In this document: positions 1 through 37,207 of the stretch, piece by piece
Layout: each line of letters starts with the position of its first letter
Position numbering within the stretch: position 1 is the stretch's first letter
Source of the DNA: Pseudomonadota bacterium
GTDB lineage: Bacteria; Desulfobacterota; Syntrophorhabdia; Syntrophorhabdales; Syntrophorhabdaceae
Assembly (NCBI GenBank): GCA_026388315.1
Contig: JAPLKA010000105.1
Span: forward strand, 1-37,207
DNA length: 37,207 bases
Direction: 5' to 3'
Notes under the pieces: model-generated
What the model was told of the DNA's origin: nothing
What the model saw: the letters and a program-made list of their open reading frames with translations, nothing else
Databases searched by the model: none
Program-made: the position numbers and the translations under genes

Positions 1-270
1 CCTGTAACCAATGCCACCCTGAACAATCTACTTACAGCATACAAGAAGGTCAAACCGGAGCCGGGCAAAACGAAGCTCATACCTATGACAAAACAGATTG
101 CCAACTTGCGATCCGTAGAGTCAAGCATTGAGACGGGCATTGCAAAATACACAAAGCCTGACCTTCAGACGCTTCTTGATGAGCTGCGGGTTTTCTGTGC
201 TTTAGTGGAACTGCGGATACCGATAGCCCCGGAACCTGCGCCGGAGAAGAAAAAGCCACCACAGGTGTAA
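1..270 (+). CDS. 3' end of an unidentified gene (5' end outside window)
   Basis: Frame 1 is open from the first base to a TAA at 268-270, giving 89 residues of a longer protein. An internal ATG at 85 exists but has no ribosome binding site, so it is probably not the start. The visible part is helical, Lys/Glu rich and free of Cys. It ends in a Pro/Lys-rich tail (APEPAPEKKKPPQV). I do not recognise a family. Codon use is ordinary for the window. Confidence 0.5.
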   Translation, partial: PVTNATLNNLLTAYKKVKPEPGKTKLIPMTKQIANLRSVESSIETGIAKYTKPDLQTLLDELRVFCALVELRIPIAPEPAPEKKKPPQV

Positions 271-518: not shown

Positions 519-547
519 TTGACTGTTTGCTTTTGTTTTGCTATTCA
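519..547 (+). promoter_or_regulatory. Candidate sigma70 promoter for the autotransporter
   Basis: TTGACT (519-524), 17-bp spacer, TATTCA (542-547). The -35 is good and the -10 is weak (4 of 6). It would start transcription at about 554, directly at the ATG at 555, and it argues against the TTG start at 519, which overlaps the -35. Confidence 0.35.
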
Positions 548-554
548 TAATTGT

Positions 555-3500
555 ATGCTGAAAAGCAAATTCCTGTCAGTTGCCATGAATACCACGAAGA
601 TATTTTTGTTTTTCTGCCTGGTAGTGTTTTTTCCTGTCAGCGTTCTTTGTCAGGGTACCCCCTTCTATCCGAACGATCCTTATTTTTTTTATAATGCAAC
701 AGAAAGGCCCGGTTTTCCCGGCCAGTGGCACCTGGTGAACCAGGGACCTGCCAGCATCAGTTTTTACTCGGTTTCCAACAAGACAACTACGCAGATGATC
801 AACGGAGGTATAGACGCCGGCCTGCGGCAGGCCTGGAGCCTTGGTTACACGGGTTATGGGGTCACAATCGGCATCGTTGACAGTGGCGTTGACGGCTCCA
901 ATTATGACATTGTCCCCGGATATCGTGCAAATCTCAGTAAAAATTTCAGCGATAATACGACCGTTGCGAATGCCTCCCAAGGGCCTCAGTCCATCAAGGA
1001 TAATCATGGGACGTCTGTGGCAGGGGTAGCGGCTGCCAGGGGAGGCAACAGTATCGGCGGGACAGGGGCCGCTCCCTATGCCGGCATTGCCGGTCTGAGG
1101 ATAAACCTTGAAAATAATGAAGAGATTGGCGGTAAAACCGTCTGTCCTGCTGGCGATCCGTGCGTATCCGACACGAATTATCAAGATGCCTATTACTGGA
1201 AGAGCGGTGTGAATCCCACCACCGGGGTCATTGAGGGAACCCCGGAGATCCAGATCAAGAACCACAGCTACGGCAATACCTCCACCTTCAGTGACCAGAC
1301 CGATAGTGTGACCCTGGCTTTGAAGCGCACTGCCGTGAACGGTGTTATCCATGTTTTTGCCGCGGGAAACAATCGTGATAAAAAAGCTGAGGACGCAAAC
1401 AAGGATGCCGACCATAATAACTCCAGCGTCATCACAGTCGCTGCTCTGGGAAGCGACGGGAAGTTTGCCAACTACAGCAGCTACGGTTCAAGCGTCTTTG
1501 TTACGGCGCCGTCAAACCGCAGCGATTATACCGGTTTCGGGATCACCACAACAGACCGCACCGGGGAAGGGCTGGGATATAACCGCTATTCCCCATCAAA
1601 TACTTCGGGCGATGCGGATGATCTTTTCCCTGATACCAGTTACGCAAGCATGTTCGGCGGCACATCGTCGGCAGCCCCTCTTGTTTCGGGCATCATGGCC
1701 CTGGGGAAGGAGGCCAACCCGGAGATGGATGTAAGGATGGCCAAGCACGCCCTCGTCAAGACCAGCACCGTTGTGGACCCCAACGATGCCTCTGACAGCA
1801 GCAGCGGCGGATGGAGGACAAACGGGGCAGGGAACAAATTCAACCCCAACTATGGCTTCGGCAACATCAACGCCGGCGCCTTCGTCCAGAAGGTAAAAAG
1901 CGTGGCCTATATAACGGAACAGACCTCCATCACAAAGAGTTTGACCTTCAGTACCCCCATCCCGGACAACGACCCCAACGGGGTAAGCAAGACCTTCAGC
2001 ATCACCGCGACGGAGGCCAAGCAGCCCCTCGAGGGCGTGGAAGTGGGGCTTACCTTCACCCATGAAAGAATAGGGGACCTCACCGCAAAGATTGAATCGC
2101 CCACCGGGATGCAAAGCCGGATATTATACTCAACGAGTCACCTTGCTTCTGGCCAGCAGGACACTGCATCCGTCACAAATGGCAGTTGGACTTTCCTTAC
2201 CAACGCTTTCTGGGGCGAGAACAGTACCGGTGTCTGGACGCTCAACCTGGCCGACATCGTGGCAGACAAGACAGGTACCTGGCTCGCCTACAACGTAACC
2301 CTCCTCATGGGGGATATGGTCCTACTCACACCGGGCACTATGACCCAGAGCACAGACATCAACGCCCAGTCCCTTACTGTTGCAAACTCCACCACCTACC
2401 AGATACCGACGGGCATGATCTTCCGTGTCCGCAACAACGTTTTAGTGGACGGCGGCACCCTCACGGTCAACGGACAGATCACCGAGGCTCCTGGTTACCA
2501 AAGCACGTTCAGTCTCGTGTCGGGAACGGTGGGAGGCTCCGGCACCATCACCGCGTCCCGGGGATTTATTAATAGCGGGGGTACAGTAAGCCCCGGCAAT
2601 TCTATCGGTACCCTCACCATCAACGGCAATTACACTCAAGCCGCAAGTGGAAAATTGAGTATTGAAGCATCGGCAACAGGCAATGACCGTCTTACAATAA
2701 ATGGCTCGGCCAACCCTGGCGGCAGTCTCGAAGTCCTATGGGTAGACGGATATATCCCGGCGGCGCGGAGTACATTCACCTTTCTCACTGCCTCAGGAGG
2801 GGTAAACGGAACGTTTGCCCAGTACAACAAATATTATATTACCCCTACCCTCACATTTCTGCCCAAATATGATATCCCCAACCAGGTATACCTCATGGTA
2901 GAAAGAGACTACACCAACCAGACCCTCCTCCCCTACCTCACTGCGAACCAGAGGGCGGTAGGCTCCATGCTCAATTCCGTGGGGAATACAGCAACAGGGG
3001 ATCTCGATACGGTCTTAACCGTCCTTGATGGCCTCCCCGCATACGGACAAACAGCGTCTGCTCTTGATCAGCTTGCCCCAAAAGGCAGTGATGCCCAATC
3101 CGGCATGGGGATCAGCAGCGCCTCCTTCCAGACAGGGAACCTCTCTGAACGCTTAAGCGATCTGAGGCACGGGATACGGGGCATGAGTCTCAACGGACTG
3201 TACTTCAAACACGGCAATGGAAAACCGGTAATGCTTGCCGATATAAACCCCGACCTCACCGGTATGCTTCCCTCGGGGGTAGATGAAAGATGGGGCTTCT
3301 TCGTAAAGGGCAATGCCGTCTACGGGGATCAGAAAGACACACCGGATGCAACAGGGTATAACTTCACCAGCATGGGTGTCACCATGGGCTCCGACTACCA
3401 CTTTTCCAAAAGCTTTATCGCCGGTCTCATGCTGGGGCTCAACACCTCCAGGGCCAATGTGGACAATACGGGCAGCAAGGTGAAGATGGACGGCTATACC

Positions 3501-4118
3501 CTGGGAGCCTACGGGACCTACTACAAAAAGAACTTCTACATGGACGGCAGCATAAGCTACGGCTTCGCCAACTACGACAATACCCGCCGCATCGTCTTCC
3601 CCGGACTTGACCGTACCGCCACGGCATCCCCTAACGGCAATCAGCTTACCGCTTACACAGGCACAGGCTACGACATCCGCAAAAACAACTGGATCATCAC
3701 CCCGAACGTGTCCTTCCAGTATGTCAAGCTTGGTATTGACAGCTATACCGAGAGGGGTGCAGGCGCCTTGAGCCTCGATGTGGATAAACAGAATACCGAA
3801 TCCCTCCAGGGGAATATAGGGGCCAGGGTGTCCTATACCTGGCAGACCGATAAGGCAGTCATCATGCCGGGTATCCGCGCCTCCTACGGATATGAGTTTT
3901 CACGGGACAGCCAGAACGTTACTTCACGTCTCGCCCAGGGGAGCTCACCTTTCAGTATCCAGACCATGTCCCCTGACAGGAACTTTCTCTCCCTCGGTGC
4001 AGGGATTACCGCCTTTACCGTCCGCGATATGTCTGTCTACATAAACTATGATGTCCAGATCGGTGAGAACAAGTATGTAGCCCAAAGCGTGAATGCAGGG
4101 CTGAGGGTGGGGTTTTAG
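555..4118 (+). CDS. Subtilisin-like serine protease autotransporter with P-domain
   Basis: Predicted surface protease of the type V secretion (autotransporter) class, 1187 residues from ATG 555; ATG 585 is an equally possible start, and neither has a Shine-Dalgarno. An N-terminal signal segment (about residues 15-33, FLFFCLVVFFP) is followed by an S8 catalytic domain: Asp109 in GIVDSG, His151 in DNHGTSVAG, Ser371 in FGGTSSAAP. Next comes a region like the proprotein-convertase P-domain (about 465-590, with ESPTG and GVWTLNLAD), then a repetitive beta-helix passenger (GGTLTVNG, GSGTITASRGFINSGGTVSPGNSIGTL split by short linkers). The last ~280 residues form an outer-membrane beta-barrel of alternating residues ending in Phe (LRVGF), the usual autotransporter terminus. 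Substrate unknown. It could process its own passenger or neighbouring surface proteins. Confidence 0.88.
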   Translation: MLKSKFLSVAMNTTKIFLFFCLVVFFPVSVLCQGTPFYPNDPYFFYNATERPGFPGQWHLVNQGPASISFYSVSNKTTTQMINGGIDAGLRQAWSLGYTGYGVTIGIVDSGVDGSNYDIVPGYRANLSKNFSDNTTVANASQGPQSIKDNHGTSVAGVAAARGGNSIGGTGAAPYAGIAGLRINLENNEEIGGKTVCPAGDPCVSDTNYQDAYYWKSGVNPTTGVIEGTPEIQIKNHSYGNTSTFSDQTDSVTLALKRTAVNGVIHVFAAGNNRDKKAEDANKDADHNNSSVITVAALGSDGKFANYSSYGSSVFVTAPSNRSDYTGFGITTTDRTGEGLGYNRYSPSNTSGDADDLFPDTSYASMFGGTSSAAPLVSGIMALGKEANPEMDVRMAKHALVKTSTVVDPNDASDSSSGGWRTNGAGNKFNPNYGFGNINAGAFVQKVKSVAYITEQTSITKSLTFSTPIPDNDPNGVSKTFSITATEAKQPLEGVEVGLTFTHERIGDLTAKIESPTGMQSRILYSTSHLASGQQDTASVTNGSWTFLTNAFWGENSTGVWTLNLADIVADKTGTWLAYNVTLLMGDMVLLTPGTMTQSTDINAQSLTVANSTTYQIPTGMIFRVRNNVLVDGGTLTVNGQITEAPGYQSTFSLVSGTVGGSGTITASRGFINSGGTVSPGNSIGTLTINGNYTQAASGKLSIEASATGNDRLTINGSANPGGSLEVLWVDGYIPAARSTFTFLTASGGVNGTFAQYNKYYITPTLTFLPKYDIPNQVYLMVERDYTNQTLLPYLTANQRAVGSMLNSVGNTATGDLDTVLTVLDGLPAYGQTASALDQLAPKGSDAQSGMGISSASFQTGNLSERLSDLRHGIRGMSLNGLYFKHGNGKPVMLADINPDLTGMLPSGVDERWGFFVKGNAVYGDQKDTPDATGYNFTSMGVTMGSDYHFSKSFIAGLMLGLNTSRANVDNTGSKVKMDGYTLGAYGTYYKKNFYMDGSISYGFANYDNTRRIVFPGLDRTATASPNGNQLTAYTGTGYDIRKNNWIITPNVSFQYVKLGIDSYTERGAGALSLDVDKQNTESLQGNIGARVSYTWQTDKAVIMPGIRASYGYEFSRDSQNVTSRLAQGSSPFSIQTMSPDRNFLSLGAGITAFTVRDMSVYINYDVQIGENKYVAQSVNAGLRVGF

Positions 4119-8724: not shown

Positions 8725-8970
8725 CCCCAACATTCGTGCAACCAGGGGAAAATTGATTAAAAAAATTGTTATCGTCAGATCTTACATAGGTTTTCTGTTC
8801 CGTTGCTACTCAGACTCCGACAGGTAGCAGACATCACAAATGAATTGAACAAGGTTTCTTGTGGTAATTCTTAATATTTAATAAAAGTCAAATCATTGAC
8901 GTGTAGGTGGAGTTATTACGTATAGTAATTTGAAATATTCACTTTTTATTACATTGAGGACCTGCCGGAG

Positions 8971-8999
8971 GATGTTGTTGACACAGTGTCAACAACATC
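8971..8999. promoter_or_regulatory. Perfect 29-bp palindrome (14-1-14)
   Basis: GATGTTGTTGACAC, one central A, then the exact reverse complement. There is no T-run, so it is not a terminator. The single-base centre favours a dimeric protein-binding site over an RNA hairpin, although a 13-bp stem with a 3-base loop is possible. It lies ~170 bp upstream of the universal stress protein gene. The binding factor is unknown. Confidence 0.55.
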
Positions 9000-9106
9000 A
9001 TAAATATCTGTAAAGTCAATACGGACGCTGTTTAACACGATTTCACTTTTAAAACTCCCTGATGAGATTCGGAATTCAGGATTTAGTGCTTTTGTCAAAA
9101 AAACGT

Positions 9107-34991: not shown

Positions 34992-35057
34992 CGCTAACCA
35001 GGCGCTGAAGCCGATCGTGGCCCTATCAGGCCACTCCGGCTTAGCTTTTTGTTCTCC
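34992..35057 (+). other. attC site 3
   Basis: 66 bp. R'' CGCTAAC (34992-34998) is the exact inverse of the cassette-3 start GTTAGCG (33727). R' is GTTCTCC (35051-35057). The arms GCT-G-AAGCCG / CGGCTT-AGC leave one extrahelical G and the tip is GTGGCC / GGCCAC. The CAGGCGCTGAAGCC block resembles common environmental attC sites. Confidence 0.85.
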
Positions 35058-35180
35058 CGGCGCTTCGCGCCGCGAGAATCGGGGTAGTTAAGCCGTCAAC
35101 TCCTTCCCGTCGCTCCGCTTCGGGAGAACAAGGAATTGAAGACCGATGCCCCTTCGGGGCACGGCTTAACTACCCCGATT
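35052..35180 (+). other. Gene-less cassette 4 with attC-like site 4
   Basis: It starts at GTTCTCC (35051-35057). The exact inverse GGAGAAC lies at 35123-35129, followed by an attC-like fold (TGCCCC-TTC-GGGGCA, CCG/CGG and AAG/CTT helices with unpaired A residues). The expected R' is degenerate (GATTGGA at ~35178). Within ~120 bp there is no ORF, only hairpins. Confidence 0.55.
35077..35180. repeat. Perfect 20-bp inverted repeat inside cassette 4
   Basis: AATCGGGGTAGTTAAGCCGT (35077-35096) is the exact inverse of 35161-35180. Smaller hairpins lie inside and beside it (TTCTCCCG/CGGGAGAA; GGCGC-TTC-GCGCC). The words GTTAAGC and GCTTAAC in the arms also match attC cores, suggesting an inverted duplication of an attC end. 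Confidence 0.7.
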
Positions 35181-35198
35181 GGAACCAAGAAAATGATA

Positions 35199-35506
35199 AA
35201 CAGTCATAAATCTTCAATGACTGAAATATACAGACACTGTGTCTGTAACATTGTCGAAACTGTTGCGACAGAATTTAAAATCCTCATAAAGCCAATACAG
35301 GCTTTGGTTTGTACAATTAAACGTTTTTTGTATTCACTGTGAATACAATTTTGAAAACTGTTGAAAGATTGTTTTTTATGTAGTACAAAAAAAATATAAA
35401 AGAAGGTTTTAAAATGGCTTGTTTTTTCTCTCCATAAGATTTATAGAAAAGAACAAAGACAAAAGACATGCTAAAAGCTATAATAAAAACAAAACCATGA
35501 AAAATT
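35199..35506. repeat. Structured repeat, copy A (left of the transposase element)
   Basis: A ~308-bp block homologous to 36741-37043. Hairpins: ACAGACAC-T-GTGTCTGT (35230-35246), TGTCGAAA-CTG-TTGCGACA (35252-35270) and GTATTCAC-T-GTGAATAC (35330-35346). A conserved single-stranded stretch contains AATTTAAAATC and ATAAAGCCAATACAGG. No gene on the plus strand. On the minus strand a short hydrophobic frame (GFVFIIAFSMSFVFVLF) has a counterpart in copy B. Confidence 0.7.
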
Positions 35507-35529
35507 TCTGGGGGAATGTATGGGGGGGA

Positions 35530-36565
35530 ATGGGGTCAAATCTTTATCCTTGACATCATCCCTCATTTCTTGGTAATATTACCCCATGGCCCGCCCGTTA
35601 CGCATCCAGTTTGAAAATGCTTACTATCACGTTACCTGCAGAGGCAACGCAGGGGAACCGATCTTTTCCGAGGACTATGACAGAAGGAAGTTTCTTCTTC
35701 TTTTACAGCATTCCGCTGAAATCTATCGGGTAAATATCCTTGCCTTCGTCCTTATGACAAATCATTTTCATCTCATCATAAAGACACCTTCCGCAAATAT
35801 CCAGGAGTTTATGCGCCACTTTAACATCTCATACACTGCCTTCTTTAACAAACAGCACGGGAGATGCGGGCATCTCTTCCAGGGCAGATATAAGTCCTTT
35901 GTGATTGACGCCGATGCCTACCTGCTGGAGGCATCCCGGTACGTACACTTGAACCCCGTCCGTATACAAAAAGGGTTAAGCACCGAACAGAAGATCACCT
36001 TATTAAAGAACTACAGATGGAGCAGCTATTATGACTACAGCGTACGCATCCGCCATCCTTTTCTCTCCTTGGAGGTGATACTTAATTACTTCAAAGGGAA
36101 GAAGGAACGCTACAGGGATTTTGTGGAAAGCGGCATAACACTCACAATAAATCCGTTAGAAAAGGGAAAGGGGCATGGAATTGTAGGGGATGCGCCGTTC
36201 ATTGAGAAGCTCATGACCGGAATTATTATAAAGCCCAAACGGGAACAGCCTGCCATGAAACAGATCATAAAAAAGGTGCAGCCGGAGAGGATACTTCAGG
36301 TAATAGCCGGCTTGCTGAACCTTCGCACAGAAGAGTTCCTGCAGAAAGGACACAAAGGTATTGCCCGCGGTCTTGCCATGGAGATGCTCTACCGCTACGG
36401 CGGTATGAACCAGAGAGAGATCGGCGAACTCATGGGGATCGACTACAGCGCCGTCAGTGTAGCAAGGAAGCGCCTTGCAGGAATGCTTGAGAAAGACAAA
36501 GACCTGACAAAGACATTCCATGAGATACAAGGGCTTCTGAGTCAAGGATAAAGATTTGACCCCAT
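35530..36565 (+). mobile_element. Transposase element bounded by 25-bp perfect inverted repeats
   Basis: 35530-35554 and 36541-36565 are exact inverse copies (outer part ATGGGGTCAAATC). They enclose the Y1 transposase gene, whose last codons and stop lie inside the right repeat. There is no target-site duplication, as expected for HUH elements. Two diverged copies of a ~305-bp repeat flank it. Confidence 0.7.
35586..36551 (+). CDS. Y1 (HUH) transposase, REP-associated type, with DnaA-like C-terminal domain
   Basis: 321 residues. The N-terminal IS200-like domain starts with the family signature MARPLRIQFENAYYHVTCRG. The metal-binding HUH motif is His60-Phe-His62 in TNHFHLII and the nucleophile is Tyr119 in EASRYVHLNPVR. 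The C-terminal ~90 residues resemble a DnaA domain IV-type helix-turn-helix (AMEMLYRYGGMNQREIGELM, DYSAVSVARKRL), a fusion common in deltaproteobacteria. It cuts single-stranded hairpin DNA, so the hairpin-rich repeats on both sides are possible substrates. The reading frame is intact. Confidence 0.93.
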   Translation: MARPLRIQFENAYYHVTCRGNAGEPIFSEDYDRRKFLLLLQHSAEIYRVNILAFVLMTNHFHLIIKTPSANIQEFMRHFNISYTAFFNKQHGRCGHLFQGRYKSFVIDADAYLLEASRYVHLNPVRIQKGLSTEQKITLLKNYRWSSYYDYSVRIRHPFLSLEVILNYFKGKKERYRDFVESGITLTINPLEKGKGHGIVGDAPFIEKLMTGIIIKPKREQPAMKQIIKKVQPERILQVIAGLLNLRTEEFLQKGHKGIARGLAMEMLYRYGGMNQREIGELMGIDYSAVSVARKRLAGMLEKDKDLTKTFHEIQGLLSQG

Positions 36566-36740
36566 ATCTTTTTGATTGCTGACCTCTAATCGCTAACAGC
36601 TTGATAATATTGACTTTACTAAGATATTTACAATTGCAGAAACTGTTGCAGCACATGCGCCACAAATCAAGGGGGGGATAAAGGGAACGATGGGGGCGTC
36701 CTTCAATATTTTAATTAAACGGATGGCGGGGAGTAAGATG
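36566..36740. other. Spacer right of the transposase
   Basis: No gene seen. It includes GGGGGGATAAAGGG (36671-36684) and a GGCGGGGAG word just before repeat copy B. Confidence 0.3.
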
Positions 36741-37043
36741 AACAGTCATAAATCTTCAATAATGAGACTTTGCGGACACTGTGTCCGTAACACTTGTAGA
36801 AAATGTTTCTACAGAATTTAAAATCCCATAAAGCCAATACAGGCGATGGTTTGGAACATTAATACTTTTTTCATTCACTGAGAATGAGAGTATGGAAACT
36901 TCCTGATAAATGTTTTTTATAGAGTACAGAAAGCAAAAGAGAAAGTTTTTAAACCGGTTGGTCTTCCTCTCAATGAGAAGTTAAGAGAAGAATAAAGACA
37001 AAAAGCAGAATAGGGGCTATAATAACAAAGAACATGGAAAAAC
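36741..37043. repeat. Structured repeat, copy B (right of the transposase element)
   Basis: Homologous to 35199-35506 at roughly 70% by eye. The same three hairpins persist with changed pairs: CGGACAC-T-GTGTCCG (36773-36787), TGTAGAAA-ATG-TTTCTACA (36795-36813) and TCATTC-ACTGA-GAATGA (36871-36887). The ATAAAGCCAATACAGG stretch is identical. Confidence 0.7.
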
Positions 37044-37128
37044 CGATAGAGGTAAAAGATAAAGTTCCAACACCTATAAGGCCTCCCCGTGTCAATAGAT
37101 AAATCTCTCCTCCAACGAAAAATGTTAC
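36970..37128 (-). pseudogene. Possible remnant of a small membrane protein
   Basis: A 52-codon open minus-strand frame reads FFVGGEIYLLTRGGLIGVG, then a hydrophobic helix MFFVIIAPILLFVFILLL. It has no proper start, but an ATG at 37159 joins it with a one-base slip in an A8 tract (37128-37136 region). Repeat copy A has a similar hydrophobic frame. A decayed gene is the simplest reading; it could also be chance in AT-rich DNA. Confidence 0.25.
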
Positions 37129-37207
37129 TTTTTTTTCGCCCTAACTTACAACTTACCATCTGACTTAATTGCCAACGGCTCCGGCTTTATTTCTTATATC
37201 GGTGCAA

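Follow-up and report, generated by a model that had tools for sequence, protein, structure and literature searches.

Three-palindrome repeats as putative clusters of parS-like sites related to a multicopy ParB-like gene family in Syntrophorhabdaceae

ParB usually acts as one protein with one conserved site, and changes of its specificity have so far been studied with few protein-site pairs. One of the parS sites of B. subtilis is located within spo0J, which provides a precedent for a site lying in its own gene, and the OB site of the KorB-OB system is an odd-numbered palindrome. Palindromes within protein-coding genes are known from the Rickettsia palindromic elements, and among the integron cassettes that lack an ORF, one from Xanthomonas encodes sRNA-Xcc1. 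In the ParB/Spo0J-parS system, specificity is set by residues of the recognition helix, and residues N178 and R173 of Caulobacter ParB are both parS contacts (PMC7383237). VirB, the ParB-related protein of the VirB-virS system, uses CTP to act in gene regulation (PMC10770331).

The locus studied here lies in a window of 37,207 nucleotides (the whole stretch of DNA that was analysed) and consists of two repeat copies, A and B, each with three palindromes. We consider it likely, judging from sequence comparison, that these palindromes are putative parS-like sites of many parallel ParB-type proteins, and that each repeat groups three of them in a non-coding cluster. A limited search of the open-access literature turned up no earlier description.

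Layout and covariation of the repeats

Copies A (35195–35500; match to the element model R1 at 35223–35366, 147.8 bits) and B (36737–37043; R1 match at 36765–36907, 142.3 bits), both on the plus strand, can be aligned across about 300 nt. In copy A, palindrome 1 (35229–35247, +; TACAGACA-CTG-TGTCTGTA) has C at arm position 2 and G at arm position 4, and its inner arms are those of the palindrome of L194, a ParB-like gene of the same genome. Palindrome 2 (35252–35270, +; TGTCGAAA-CTG-TTGCGACA) has A and G at these positions, and palindrome 3 (35328–35348, +; TTGTATTCA-CTG-TGAATACAA) has C and T, with inner arms of the FTVN type. The linker (35278–35312, +) is homologous to the HTH coding DNA of ParB-like genes (...KPIQALV...), with the coding lost. 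The palindromes of copy B are found at 36771–36789 (TGCGGACA-CTG-TGTCCGTA), 36795–36813 (TGTAGAAA-ATG-TTTCTACA) and 36869–36889 (core CATTCA-CTG-AGAATG), all on the plus strand; positions 2 and 4 are equal in A and B for all three palindromes, though the arms differ.

The sequence-only reading of this DNA had proposed that three hairpins are conserved in both copies through compensatory changes. The three hairpins are indeed present in both, but their arms are not fully paired throughout, with an A:G mismatch at arm position 3 of hairpin 2 in copy A and an A:A mismatch beside the loop of hairpin 3 in copy B. The individual changes from A to B were recovered as described. In hairpin 1, A35232-T35244 is replaced by G36774-C36786, hairpin 2 has A-T in place of C-G, and in hairpin 3 the pairs G-C and T-A have become T-A and C-G; the copies do not differ along the AAAGCCAATACAGG stretch, and pairing is preserved by compensating changes.

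The genome contains seven strong copies of the element. Across them, 93.7% of cells are paired, 13 of 32 pairs show double changes, and covariation amounts to 0.372, a value that none of 500 shuffles reached (0.170 after shuffling; slid controls ≤0.11). A covariance model built from these seven copies, with copies counted above 60 bits, retrieved 47 copies from four related genomes. Seven are from this genome and 2 from another of the same genus; the remaining copies, 16 and 22, come from two genomes that belong to a single other genus. A search of 35 further genomes of the family gave no copy above this threshold. These whole-genome counts rest on searches and on fetched stretches, 33 of which hold element copies. 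For the 47 copies, 93.0% of cells are paired and covariation is 0.422 vs 0.138 shuffled (0 of 500 shuffles; slid controls ≤0.08), the figures from the seven copies being the more independent ones because the 47-copy alignment was fitted to the structure of the model. The search of the genome and its relatives and the statistical test that had been suggested along with the original claim gave strong covariation, and the excess of paired changes persists in the larger sets of 7 and 47 copies.

A fourth hairpin proposed by RNAalifold in the linker showed almost no covariation in the 47 copies and was discarded as unsupported. At the 3′ end of copy B, a promoter-like AAGACA-N17-TATAAT motif seen in the sequence (36995–37023, +) faces outward, and a loose form of it occurs in 17 of the 47 copies. 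Searching GTDB contigs with the core motif returned a MAG of the same genus from Lake Pavin and one Balneolia match, which was set aside as chance; the motif was not found in viral contigs. As in the sequence-only reading, no named family with this layout was found.

Selection of the structure as an RNA, one of the two explanations offered earlier, was not borne out. In the three variable hairpins, G.T mismatches (23) and A.C mismatches (20) are equally rare. A folded RNA is expected to tolerate G.U far more than A.C, so that the hairpins would be DNA palindromes rather than RNA stems; similar palindromes in coding genes are nearly wobble-free (2 GT and 1 AC of 360). A scan of the window against Rfam gave no match, and the first 150 nt of copy A fold better than shuffled sequence (z −2.4). 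Codon-phase entropy in the elements is flat (0.87/0.87/0.93), which indicates that the element is non-coding. A protein gene was considered, as some copies read MIENIDF...TDTVS..., but the frames are often broken and the codon-phase signal is absent. Altogether, the substitution pattern points to palindromes kept at the level of DNA.

A palindrome within the genes of a ParB-like family

At other places in these genomes, further palindromes share the A-C-N-G-T centre; a relative without the element has hardly any. Many are located inside genes for ParB-like proteins, and others in non-coding elements or as single palindromes. The linker of the element matches the DNA of the ParB HTH, and many weak R1 matches (30–50 bits), which might have been taken as noise, coincide with ParB-like genes. 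ParB_N (PF02195) was detected in 31 of 31 members of this gene family and HTH_ParB (PF17762) in 30 of 31, the motifs GERR and TENLQREDLNP are invariant among members, and a Foldseek search with the predicted model (mean pLDDT 76, pTM 0.49) gave matches to Noc, ParB and KorB. With an N-terminal domain bearing GERR and ENLQR, an HTH_ParB domain and a ParB fold, these proteins are probable members of the ParB/Spo0J family.

In four genomes the ParB-like family has 46–64 matches each, fragments included, and two more genomes have 13 and 5; elsewhere in the Syntrophorhabdaceae, genomes typically have 1–2 ordinary ParB homologues. Among 247 genomes drawn from the phylum, close matches were present only in members of this family. 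In a search for a mobile-element boundary common to the ParB-like genes, shared flanks were confined to subsets of the genes, and no common neighbour gene was found. The contig starts within a member of the family (window 4–216, C-terminal part, 48% identity to the query), which fits an assembly broken by repeats, and a decayed fragment with an internal stop codon and its own palindrome (8970–9000) is found at 8956–9078 (+). At another locus (L198), a more ordinary ParB-type gene without the palindrome lies upstream of a family member and adjoins it.

A nearly perfect palindrome whose arms vary was present in all 60 ParB-like genes examined (40 plus 20), always at the same codon position, its centre lying 25 nt 5′ of the AKSIQT codons in 40 of the first 40. 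In these 40 genes, 355 of 360 arm pairs are Watson-Crick, corresponding to 8.88 of 9 pairs per palindrome in comparison with 6.45 after synonymous recoding. All four bases appear at several arm positions, several arm pairs out of the nine show little or no variation across genes, and the amino acids track the palindrome (LTVR, PTVG, DTVS, FTVN, STVD). Eight ordinary ParB genes of the Syntrophorhabdaceae and one other ParB of this genome form only 1–4 of the nine pairs at that position, where the longest hairpin arm of ordinary ParB genes is 3–4, and 8 in one gene. The gene palindromes depart from the canonical 16-bp parS (TGTTTCACGTGAAACA) in being odd-numbered and in having variable arms, and all that one palindrome class has in common with parS is the inner CAC-N-GTG.

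Outside the residues encoded by the palindrome itself, the strongest associations between residues and arm bases link residue 172 with position 4 and residue 176 with position 2. In the 40 genes, R/K172 occurs with G4 in 21 of 21 cases and G4 never occurs without R/K172, while R176 goes with C2 in 20 of 21 and N176 with A2 in 18 of 18. The rule was set on these genes and written down before 20 further genes were fetched. In the held-out set, the rule for residue 172 and position 4 was followed in 13/13 and 7/7 genes, and that for residue 176 and position 2 in 7/7 and 13/13. The recognition helix spans residues 171–182 in the predicted model, and by spacing residue 176 corresponds to Caulobacter ParB N178 and residue 171 to R173.

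On a backbone tree built without the HTH, each trait changed 19 times; its supported branches provide 7 independent pairs, all concordant (p = 0.016 for each trait). A tree of the module flanks leaves 2–3 supported independent pairs, again all concordant. The HTH module may be exchanged as a block, and residue and site could therefore move together; the ancestry test covers the sites in genes, not the use of the non-coding elements. As in parS, the bases of the in-gene palindromes fit the recognition helix of their own ParB. The best explanation of the residue-base association is a proposed reading in which helix residues 172 and 176 would read arm positions 4 and 2, respectively.

The elements were compared with the genes at the same positions. 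C2/G4 is found at hairpin 1 in 33 of 43 copies and C2/T4 at hairpin 3 in 39 of 45, the remaining arm bases of both varying while positions 2 and 4 stay; hairpin 2 varies. In the ParB-like genes, the letter pairs CG, AG and CT go with R/K172+R176, R/K172+N176 and P/T/S172+R176, respectively, and members of all three types are present in this genome. For hairpin 1, exact matches between element and gene arms are no more frequent than with column-shuffled arms, and for hairpin 2 they are about twice as frequent, which is weak evidence of exact arm reuse.

Transposon and integron surroundings

Between the two copies lies a Y1/HUH transposon unit (35530–36565, +) with an ORF at 35586–36551 (Pfam Y1_Tnp) and 25-bp perfect inverted repeats at its ends. 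The hairpins had been suggested earlier as single-stranded DNA for this transposase. Relatives of the transposase were found in only 2 of the 33 fetched stretches, one of them distant (36% identity, L012), and the unit is also found, at 80% identity, in a part of the genome where the repeats are absent, which argues against that suggestion. With regard to a place among REP or IS200/IS605-like transposon ends, the hairpins do not travel with the transposase. The HUH transposon between A and B is an independent insertion, unrelated to the repeats.

Upstream of copy A, an attC-like site of an integron cassette (34993–35053, +) was recognised by eye, comparable sites being present in the array on contig C46. 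A palindromic element of about 130 bp (CTCCCGGCGCTTCGCGCC...CTTAACTACCCCGATT; 35052–35178, +) sits inside the attC core site, and its copies on C46, C54, C84, C125 and C128 of the same genome, 92–98% identical, lie at attC core sites and beside the integrase gene. Past copy B, GTTCCAAC (37064–37071, +) starts an attC-like site that is interrupted by a repeat reaching the contig end. The same approximately 140 bp (window 37072–37207) are found at the ends of C46, C113 and C125, and this repeat is probably an IS end that cuts the attC-like site of copy B and breaks the assembly. The genome encodes an integron integrase that scores 370 bits against TIGR02249, which exceeds the curated cut-off, and a cassette array lies adjacent to it; its 491-aa ORF (G000:C46:8824-9753; L015, L031) carries an N-terminal extension that makes it longer than the 315-position family model.

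An attC-like core site, GTTGGAACC, immediately precedes several element copies, and some others are preceded by a different conserved sequence. Several copies finish with GTTCCAAC, and an attC-like palindrome comes next. A simple motif search found core-site-like sequence upstream of 20 of the 47 copies and inverse-core-like sequence downstream of 23, and several copies have no attC nearby. Since attC-like sequences border them, many copies, although not all, may be ORF-less cassettes, and the elements would often be carried as integron cassettes. The C55 copy contains a MITE-like insertion (L011, ~1020–1190) with ATACCAATT-type inverted repeats at both ends. At the other end of the window, positions 519–4118 encode an autotransporter with subtilase and P domains.

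Interpretation and comparison with known systems

If the palindromes are parS-like, every intact ParB-like gene would carry a candidate site within the stretch that encodes its HTH, immediately 5′ of the recognition-helix codons. The A/B repeats would be non-coding derivatives that kept the middle palindrome and the linker, with one palindrome on each side, so that three specificities are predicted per copy (positions 2/4: CG, variable, CT). Homodimers of the matching paralogues might load on the element sites and spread, and once loaded they might regulate or mark neighbouring cassettes; we infer actual binding, CTP use and action in trans on the elements, the ParB CTPase motifs being what the sequence offers. 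There is, in our estimate, an even chance of a broader picture: each genome would possess dozens of natural ParB-type protein/site pairs, every gene encoding its own site beside the recognition-helix codons so that specificity and site change together, and sites would also be released as non-coding three-site integron-cassette modules that put neighbours under chosen paralogues.

The main rival is that the elements are decayed and multiplied fragments of ParB-like genes without a function of their own, whose palindromes persist by inheritance or exchange with the genes, or through template-switching repair during replication. The homology of the linker to HTH codons and the existence of frame-decayed fragments such as that at 8956–9078 fit this explanation, as do the equal GT and AC counts, which palindrome repair yields with no need for selection. 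We nevertheless regard it as rather unlikely in view of the three-palindrome layout with fixed spacing in 47 copies, the constancy of positions 2 and 4 in hairpins 1 and 3 while other arm bases change, and the residue-base rule in the genes, which is unexpected from mutation alone. The in-gene sites and their code would stand even if the elements were passive relics.

That palindromes are found in coding genes, but also in non-coding elements and singly, would likewise suit a selfish palindromic element of the Rickettsia kind, spreading and tolerated within coding genes and cassettes. Such an element is improbable, given that intact genes always carry the palindrome at the same codon position and that its bases in unseen genes follow from the helix residues next to it; homologues lacking exactly the palindrome segment were not seen, the only ordinary ParB genes compared being distant. 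We give slightly less credit still to a structured RNA, either an sRNA or a leader with three hairpins: strong covariation and the favourable folding of copy A would agree with it, but G.U does not exceed A.C, an Rfam match is absent, and many copies start directly after an attC core site, leaving no space for an upstream promoter. Equally slight is the prospect that the hairpins act as single-stranded DNA for the HUH transposase or for the integron integrase, as an attC-like or attI-like site. The transposase between A and B, the position of many copies at cassette boundaries, and the conservation of structure over sequence in attC sites would favour this role; against it stand the scarcity of HUH genes near the copies and the transposon found without repeats, the separate ordinary attC-like sites that flank the copies, and the same kind of palindrome in ParB-like genes away from integrons.

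With what appear to be dozens of ParB variants in single genomes and a candidate site attached to each gene, the evolution of protein-DNA specificity becomes directly testable, and two residue-base rules can be read from sequence alone and were confirmed on unseen genes. Many parallel ParB/parS pairs could also serve for DNA labelling. The repertoire raises the question of why a bacterium has so many ParB-like pairs and why their sites ride on integron cassettes.

With ParB/Spo0J-parS, the family described here shares ParB_N with GERR and ENLQR, HTH_ParB, and a putative palindromic target with inner CAC..GTG; it differs in its number of paralogues, dozens per genome where one or two are usual, and in having an odd-numbered palindrome with a central base and hypervariable arms, a candidate site that overlaps the codons beside the recognition helix in every member, and sites that also occur in non-coding three-site elements. 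Noc-NBS and KorB-OB are likewise ParB relatives with a site unlike parS, and the fold predicted here matches both proteins, but each has a single specificity in contrast to the diversified repertoire of these genomes. VirB-virS may be a model, by analogy, for the function of the ParB-like family, although VirB is encoded by a single plasmid gene and an in-gene palindrome is not reported in PMC10770331. Like other ORF-less integron cassettes, the elements are non-coding cassette cargo repeated in an array; their conserved content, however, is palindromic sites homologous to a ParB-like gene and not a known sRNA. Finally, the Rickettsia palindromic elements also lie within protein-coding genes, whereas the in-gene palindromes described here occupy one fixed position in one gene family, with their bases matched to helix residues.
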